From positions 1 to 64,000 of the forward strand of contig CACZFM010000013.1 in assembly GCA_902780495.1 (NCBI GenBank): a stretch of 64,000 bases of DNA, read 5' to 3'. Source of the DNA: an uncultured Bacteroidales bacterium. Lineage in GTDB: Bacteria; Bacteroidota; Bacteroidia; Bacteroidales; Paludibacteraceae. Numbering within the stretch: position 1 is the stretch's first letter; the number at the start of each line of letters is the position of its first letter. Below are positions 59,566 through 60,988 of this stretch, one piece after another. Below the pieces are notes generated by a model. The model did no database searches. It was not told the origin of the DNA and was given only the letters and a program-made list of their open reading frames with translations. The position numbers were made by a program, and so were the translations under genes.

Positions 59566-59611
59566 GAGCATTGTTTTTTATAATTAGTTTTGTTTTTTCA
59601 CTTTTCCGTTC

Positions 59612-59620
59612 GCAAAAGTA
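59612..59620 (-). promoter_or_regulatory. Promoter of the dynamin-like GTPase operon
   Basis: The minus strand reads TACTTTTGC, 47 bases before the ATG at 59565. The place where a -33 element should be (about 59640) is occupied by a perfect palindrome. A second weaker -7-like element, TATCTTTGT, is at 59683-59691. Confidence 0.7.
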
Positions 59621-59634
59621 CTACTTTTTTATTT

Positions 59635-59660
59635 AAAATTTGTAGACGTCTACAAATTTT
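59635..59660. promoter_or_regulatory. Perfect 26-bp palindrome, candidate operator
   Basis: The 13-base half-site AAAATTTGTAGAC is followed directly by its exact reverse complement with no loop (centre GAC|GTC). A loopless palindrome is better suited to a dimeric repressor than to an RNA hairpin. It lies 14 to 40 bases upstream of the -7 element at 59612-59620, covering the -33 position. Confidence 0.75.
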
Positions 59661-59773
59661 GTTGCATTTCTTTAGATTCTGTACAAAGATAGTCTATTAT
59701 TCCGTCCTATTACACATATTTTATTGTCCTTAATATCTATGCACAAAAAAACGTGAGGCTTGTTGGCTTCAAT

Positions 59774-59906
59774 TTGGATTGTTGAGGATTCTGGACTACC
59801 TTTCATTACCAAACATCTACGAAACAAGGCTCACGCACAACGTGAGCAAAAAGCCTTGTCCTTGATAATGAAATTGTTTGAAAGTGTCCAGTTTTCAACA
59901 ATCCAA
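59774..59906. repeat. Long imperfect inverted repeat (133 bp)
   Basis: The outer 12 bases TTGGATTGTTGA (59774-59785) recur inverted at 59895-59906. Further matched blocks inside are CTGGAC, TTTCATTA, ACAAGGCT and CACG, folding to a central loop near 59838. A third, inverted copy of the ACAAGGCTCACG block lies just outside at 59751-59764. It is either a decayed small mobile element (MITE-like) or a structured RNA. The gap from 59566 to 59998 holds no gene I can support. Confidence 0.7.
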
Positions 59907-59998
59907 GTTCTTAGCCGTATGCTTATATATGGCGCACGCTTGCGCTCTGTTCTCCTATTTAACGTCAGGGGGTGACGTATATTGTTTGATAGTCACGA

Positions 59999-60913
59999 TT
60001 AGTGACAGCAAGTTCCCTTAACCTGATTCAGTATTACATCCGGACTCAAGTCCATGCGCATGATAGCAGATAATTTCTTACCCAAATCTTTTACCGAATG
60101 CCCACAGTGGTACAACGTATCATCAGCAATAACCCAACGGTCATGCGAGGAGCCTGACCACTTATGCGTATTAACGGGCTGTTTACCTTTGGATGCGTTA
60201 TGCGCGTCACGGAGAGTTTTGTTCTCACTTTCGGAATAAATATCCGCAGTTACGCCTTTCGCGCGCACATCCAACATCTCAAACGTTGCAGCATCTACAT
60301 ACGGGTCAATAATGATGATGCGTTTGGTGGCTGTCTTGACAATCCGTTCAAGCAACACGCGTGCTTCAAAGAACTGTCCATCAAAGAATACCTGCTCCAC
60401 AGGCGGCAATGCAGTCCGGACAAAGAAATCGATTTTATTCTGTAATTCGTGAATCTGCATTGTATGCTCCTCCAACTTACGATCTATACGTTCTTCCACA
60501 TATAAAAGCTGTTGATTATATGCATATCCACGCAATAAATATTCCTTGATAATTCTCAGTGCCCATTGGCGGAATTGTGTGCCGCGCTGAGACTTCACCC
60601 TGTAACCTACGGAGATAATGACATCCAAATTATAGTATGAAACGTGACGCGTTACGTGACGCCCTCCTTCATTTTGAACTATTAAAAAATCTTTAACAGT
60701 TGCCCCTTTATCCAATTCCCCTTCCTTATAAATATTGCGGATGTGAATACTTATATTGGGAATCGTCGAATTAAACAACGAGGCCATTTGCTGTTGACTG
60801 AGCCATACAGTCTCATTAGCCAATTGCACATCCAATTGCAGCGTATTATCTTCCGTACGGTAGATTACCACGCTTTCATCTGTTGGATTATATGGTTCGA
60901 TACTTTCCGCCAT
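59999..60913 (-). CDS. RhuM-family protein with C-terminal phospholipase D-like domain
   Basis: 304 residues. The N-terminal RhuM part has VWLSQQQMASLFNSTIPNISIHIRNIYKEGEL (helix-turn-helix-like), NLDVIISVGYRVKSQRGTQFRQWA and IIKEYLLRGYAYN. A coiled linker follows (residues 135-165). The C-terminal part has RIIIIDPYVDAATFEML and SHDRWVIADDTLYHCGHSVKDLG, the H-x-R/K pattern of PLD-fold nucleases. RhuM proteins occur in pathogenicity and defence islands; their biochemical role is not settled. It has its own promoter at 60980-60988 and sits inside the segment bordered by direct repeats. Base composition is less AT-rich than the GTPase genes. Confidence 0.85.
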   Translation of the reverse strand: MAESIEPYNPTDESVVIYRTEDNTLQLDVQLANETVWLSQQQMASLFNSTIPNISIHIRNIYKEGELDKGATVKDFLIVQNEGGRHVTRHVSYYNLDVIISVGYRVKSQRGTQFRQWALRIIKEYLLRGYAYNQQLLYVEERIDRKLEEHTMQIHELQNKIDFFVRTALPPVEQVFFDGQFFEARVLLERIVKTATKRIIIIDPYVDAATFEMLDVRAKGVTADIYSESENKTLRDAHNASKGKQPVNTHKWSGSSHDRWVIADDTLYHCGHSVKDLGKKLSAIMRMDLSPDVILNQVKGTCCH

Positions 60914-60979: not shown

Positions 60980-60988
60980 GCAAAGGTA
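60980..60988 (-). promoter_or_regulatory. Promoter of the RhuM-PLD gene
   Basis: The minus strand reads TTACCTTTGC around a consensus TAnnTTTGC element, 67 bases before the RhuM ATG. Confidence 0.75.

Follow-up and report, generated by a model that had tools for sequence, protein, structure and literature searches.

Ahead of an operon of two Leo-type dynamin-like GTPases, in a stretch of 64,000 nucleotides (hereafter the window), we find a real and conserved, promoter-embedded putative operator, at which a repressor seems less likely than an activator. It is a perfect palindrome and the strongest example of an element that recurs, always at one position, in promoters of mobile defence and conflict genes of a few related bacteria. 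To our knowledge, little has been learnt, beyond a few Proteobacterial regulators, of how accessory defence genes are silenced and turned on. In the present case a short module defined by its sequence predicts which operons share a regulon, among them two Leo dynamin operons of different arrangement, so that the trans-acting factor should be findable and the sign of control testable.

A palindrome at the promoter of a Leo dynamin operon

The sequence AAAATTTGTAGACGTCTACAAATTTT is a perfect 26-bp palindrome (Table 1), exactly as a preliminary description of this DNA had reported. That description held a chance origin to be very unlikely, and our estimates agree: it is the sole palindrome with arms of at least 8 nt in the 64-kb window (48% GC), palindromes with arms of at least 13 nt are expected about 0.0008 times per window (extrapolated from first-order Markov shuffles), and in 60 windows shuffled in this way the longest arm did not exceed 10 nt. 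On the minus strand the palindrome is followed by the −7 box TACTTTTG, by the ATG of the first ORF at 59571, and then by the LeoBC and LeoA genes. The dyad centre lies at about −39 from the start site, 27 nt before a −7 box of the sigma-ABfr type, so that the palindrome does sit over the promoter of the dynamin operon, and it does cover the site of a missing −33 TTTG, both as first proposed. Between the RhuM-family gene and this promoter there is also a 15-nt inverted repeat with a 109-nt loop (59771-59785 and 59895-59909).

Table 1. Coordinates of the palindrome, its promoter and the neighbouring genes in the window
Feature	Position	Strand	Remarks
LeoA/HP0731-family dynamin-like GTPase, 555 aa	55227..56894	-	NF041922 (NCBIfam), 446 bits; PADLOC
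LeoBC-type dynamin-like GTPase, 775 aa	56898..59225	-	PADLOC LeoBC, E 4e-96
First ORF of operon, 105 aa	59254..59571	-	Signal peptide and vWA start as in genome G001, then unrelated BNR-like sequence
−7 box TACTTTTG	59613..59620	-	Palindrome centre exactly 27 nt upstream, the same at 16/16 related sites
57-bp promoter module	59613..59669	-	98% identical to the copy at C13:83.8 kb (L014 5792-5848) of the same genome
Proposed operator	59635..59660	.	Halves AAAATTTGTAGAC and GTCTACAAATTTT; conserved core TGTAGACGTCTACA at 59641-59654
Expected position of −33 TTTG	59641..59644	-	Reads TACA, from the right half-site; by positional comparison with ordinary promoters of the genus
RhuM-family gene	59999..60913	-	Upstream; own ordinary promoter (−33 TTTG, −7 at 60988), outside the element

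The element recurs within one genus

Recurrence of the half-site elsewhere in the genome had been put forward as a check. The 2.03-Mb assembly has exactly three copies of the 18-bp core TTTGTAGACGTCTACAAA, against zero matches for its reversed control. Besides the window copy, one core lies at C8:34848, flanked by a 362-aa gene and a 225-aa gene, and one at C13:83804, downstream of an AbiEii-like gene and ahead of two small ORFs. All three cores have TAnnTTTG exactly 27 nt from the palindrome centre, and two of them lie 20-45 nt past a stop codon. Copies of the module that share a genome are near-identical over ~57-60 bp and divergent past the module edge. Genes for tRNA-Val (L014 4594-4669) and tRNA-Asp (L015 10175-10249) adjoin two of the three loci; a tRNA-adjacent position is typical of integrated islands.

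When we searched 358 genomes of the family with the composite pattern TAKACGTMTAC-N21-TANNYTTG, we obtained 14 sites in seven genomes, all belonging to the genus of the window, and one match for the reversed control; the pattern was absent from 180 genomes of 32 other genera. Two further clear sites with one mismatch in the site-bearing genomes bring the total to 16 sites in seven species, with the consensus halves TGTAKAC and GTMTACA meeting 27 nt upstream of the −7 box. Invariant over the 16 sites are A-4, A-2, C-1, G+1, T+2, T+4, A+5 and C+6, as well as A+19 to A+23, T+28, A+29 and the TTG of the −7 box. In four congeners the orthologues of the 225-aa gene have a different dyad at this place, two abutting GTATAC halves or a near variant; its 27-nt spacing and the AAAAAAGCAGTAnnTTTG region are those seen in the genome of the window. 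In three genomes (G007, G048 and G049) the sites are at most 5-11 kb apart, in one island each. With a single genus and descent that is partly shared, as for the 225-aa orthologues, the 16 sites do not represent 16 independent events.

It is the inner ~14 bp only of the 26-mer that are conserved. The outer AAAATTT...AAATTTT symmetry is confined to two copies, both in the genome of the window, and the other family sites pair at 7-11 of 13 positions, being imperfect dyads except for those of the window's type; the 26-bp perfection is therefore an extreme form of a ~14-bp conserved element. The exact 26-mer of the preliminary description is not the conserved unit across the family; it is a related element that is kept upstream of homologous operons, ahead of the Leo genes of G049, the vWA operon of G001 and the 225-aa orthologues. 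Across sites the gene-proximal right half (GTMTAC) is better conserved than the left, and since most sites outside the window are imperfect, binding need not be symmetric.

The analysis as a whole drew on pattern searches, family searches and selected stretches of sequence. The exact 18-mer gave five matches in 85k species genomes, in unrelated phyla and at about chance level, and none in IMG/VR viral contigs, in which the composite pattern had one match, by our estimate also about what chance would give. The promoter module had no match in plasmid and phage records, a search of the genus allowing up to two mismatches returned matches that looked like noise at first, and when we looked for palindromes of whatever sequence at 27 nt from a −7 box, only the known ones came up.

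Palindrome promoters lack the −33 element

All 16 sites are followed by TAnnYTTG, the −7 box of promoters read by sigma-ABfr, the Bacteroidetes housekeeping factor. For comparison we collected 27 candidate ordinary promoters from the window and related loci, selected solely for an intergenic match to TA..TTTG[CT] ahead of an ORF. In 23 of them a TTG stands exactly 20 nt before the −7 box, and in 25 it is within 18-22 nt, compared with none of nine palindrome promoters (25/27 versus 0/9, Fisher p 5.8e-7, for a control set that is small and partly drawn from the same loci). The ordinary promoters have the same layout as the published Bacteroides consensus, −33 TTTG and −7 TAnnTTTG (PMC7366714). 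At none of the 16 listed palindrome sites is there a −33 TTTG about 20 nt before the −7 box; its place is taken every time by the gene-proximal half-site. The palindrome is linked to the promoter, and the view, already expressed in the preliminary description, of an operator for a dimer, probably protein-bound, is supported.

Variable cargo behind the module

The genes behind the modules match defence or toxin families and differ from genome to genome. A Leo pair stands behind a palindrome module both in the window and in G049, with unrelated leaders and in a different arrangement; G049 also has a KilA-N protein. The remaining cargo comprises an SLFN/AlbA_2 protein in G048, a radical-SAM protein in G007, a WCX/WYL-domain protein in G170 with a type I methyltransferase-like gene farther downstream, and in G001 a vWA operon that includes a WHH nuclease and an AbiE pair. 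The homology of the window to G049 (80%) ends at the LeoBC start codon, and that of the window to G001 takes in the module and the beginning of the vWA ORF (G001: L045:5754-6773). The simplest reading of these breakpoints is that cargo was exchanged behind a retained promoter, and the 105-aa ORF that opens the Leo operon of the window is a chimera, probably a remnant or scar of such an exchange.

In the genome of the window and in its congeners, the module also precedes a gene whose product, the 225-aa protein mentioned above, is predicted to have a uracil-DNA-glycosylase (UDG) fold: its top Foldseek matches are UdgX proteins (probability 1.00, best E 1.5e-4, for a model with mean pLDDT 65.5). 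The family (L015 8103-8780 and orthologues; L040 10167-10823, L041 11903-12523) lies in variable islands, has no Pfam match, and shows conserved cysteines (C-x4-C-x5-C-x14-C) and an HPS motif.

Search for the regulator

We profiled six helix-turn-helix (HTH) families in the seven site-bearing genomes, where assembly gaps limit what an absence means, and for none of CRP, XRE, TetR, BlaI, true MarR and well-scoring WYL did we find a clear member in every genome. A CRP/FNR regulon was rejected, HTH_Crp_2 being absent from three of the seven (G000, G001 and G039, the window's own genome included), and so was an XRE-type regulon, since G048, 98% complete, has no HTH_3 protein. TetR and BlaI/CopY, two of the regulator types to which the preliminary description had pointed, fare no better: TetR_N finds nothing in G049, which is 97% complete, and Penicillinase_R nothing in G000, G001, G049 and G170, again including the genome of the window. 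MarR orthologues are present in G000, G007, G049 and G170 and missing from G001 (82% complete); the only MarR match of G048 aligns with a longer, different protein that is not an orthologue of the other MarR genes. For WYL, G048 yields a 25-bit partial match only. No HTH regulator gene adjoining the site in all genomes was identified, in keeping with the earlier proposal that the regulator is not encoded beside the operon.

The products of two core genes of the island were considered as a new kind of regulator, a common activator for any cargo behind the module: the UDG-fold protein, which has the site in the promoter of its own gene, both in the genome of the window and in congeners, and a 350-aa protein with no Pfam match and no fold match (its AlphaFold model is poor, mean pLDDT 65.7). 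We regard this idea as doubtful; if it were true, the module would serve as a promoter into which genes of defence and conflict can be plugged.

An activator-dependent reading and its alternatives

A palindrome in place of the polymerase-contact site suggests that a protein must bind there to turn the genes on. We propose that the palindrome is the operator of a dimeric transcription factor whose regulon is small and consists of mobile operons for defence and conflict in a single Bacteroidales genus. RNA polymerase would recognise the palindrome promoters poorly unless the factor binds, and the factor, placed at the −33/−39 region, would supply the missing contact (class II activation). As polymerase would need the factor for this contact, the Leo dynamin operon would stay silent for as long as the factor is absent or inactive. 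The module would move with swapped cargo or be re-used by it, bringing new genes under the same control. Protein binding, the dimeric state and the sign of control are what we infer from DNA sequence, and we give this account, taken as a whole and the best explanation at hand, an even chance of being right.

The preliminary description had instead a dimeric repressor covering the −33 region and blocking polymerase; in such a reading an inducer, a phage or a DNA-damage signal would release it. The site does overlap the polymerase footprint, toxic cargo would justify tight repression, and repression is the mode of action of known defence-island regulators such as RptR (PMC12255303). A repressor would however be expected to leave a good −33 box in place, and such a box is found in 0/9 promoters tested and 0/16 listed; moreover, of the regulator families first named, TetR, BlaI/CopY and, less clearly, MarR are missing from at least one near-complete site-bearing genome. 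An activator fits better because all 16 promoters are without the −33 element of ordinary ones, and we consider a repressor rather unlikely, though a promoter without this element might also just be weak, with a repressor to silence it further. The same fixed 27-nt spacing, together with the better conservation of the gene-proximal GTMTAC than of the far half, would suit an alternative sigma factor that reads the element as its −33 part and keeps the usual −7 box, the symmetry being incidental; indeed, a second promoter motif of B. thetaiotaomicron has elements at −10 and −30 (PMC7366714). Yet the upstream half is conserved and symmetric too. The TAnnTTTG box is here the ordinary one, while alternative sigma factors normally alter the −10 part as well, and we find this explanation improbable.

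Near-identity of the intragenomic copies up to the module edge, cargo that varies between genomes and the tRNA genes beside two of the three own-genome copies would also be expected of a recombination or homing site for the exchange of accessory cargo, with the promoter carried along. This explains neither the invariant spacing to the −7 box nor the specific loss of the −33 element, we noticed no recombinase common to the loci, and the orthologous UDG-fold loci retain the site without exchange, all of which makes it very improbable. As for a terminator or RNA hairpin of the upstream gene, the position of two own-genome copies shortly past a stop codon would agree with it, and the window copy as RNA folds at about −10 kcal/mol; but that copy lies 340 bp from the upstream gene, the −7 box spacing is conserved, and most of the 14 sites that we folded have no or a negligible hairpin. 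We rejected an intrinsic terminator as the common function on the last of these grounds and find any such role hardly credible. Neither of the outcomes that would have refuted the preliminary description holds: the element is conserved upstream of homologous operons, and it is not a terminator.

Comparison with known regulatory systems

For the activator-dependent reading, the closest parallel in layout is with class II activator promoters (CRP/FNR-type), where the site is centred near −40. At all sites of our family the dyad is centred near −40 (about −39) and overlaps and replaces a degenerate −35/−33 box; the palindrome motif, however, is not TGTGA/TTGAT-like, and HTH_Crp_2 is missing from the genome of the window. 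BlaI/MecI/CopY operators have the form TACA...TGTA, and they share with the palindrome an AT-rich dyad with TGTA and TACA elements. Here the order of the half-sites is opposite, TGTA lying outside on the left and TACA outside on the right, and four of the seven genomes have no Penicillinase_R protein. CapW and BrxR are transcription factors of immune operons, encoded with the operons that they control. The same holds for CapK/CapS, which places an anti-phage operon under transcription-factor control (PMC13373217). The likeness to these systems is that anti-phage operons are governed by transcription factors, and the difference that no shared WYL or other HTH gene was found here.

RptR regulates a phage-defence island through TAGCTA operators (PMC12255303). 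As in our case, one operator type controls a defence-island promoter and is conserved with defence cargo. RptR is, however, the product of the first gene of its own operon and acts as a repressor on a repeated 6-bp palindrome that covers the −10 box (PMC12255303), whereas in our family the −33 box gives way to a palindrome of 14-20 bp, common to several separate operons of a genome, and we see no regulator gene that travels with the site.

Leaders and neighbouring elements

A conserved leader of ~300-600 nt follows the palindrome promoter in G048, G049 and G039 and is itself followed by unrelated cargo (L040 7276-8000, L041 6749-7500, L044 10487-10800); it contains small ORFs, such as a conserved one of 75 aa. 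In G001, G007 and G170 a short Bro-N-type ORF (~100 aa, ending in IQSIPSKKAA; L045 6816, L042 6950, L055 9472) precedes the first palindrome promoter, a place taken by the RhuM gene in the window. Rfam yields nothing on the window. In the same islands as the element we observed a DUF805b cis-regulatory RNA (RF02914; L041 7141-7175 and L042 13599-13633), which is distinct from the palindrome and which in G049 is part of the leader that separates the palindrome promoter from the Leo genes.
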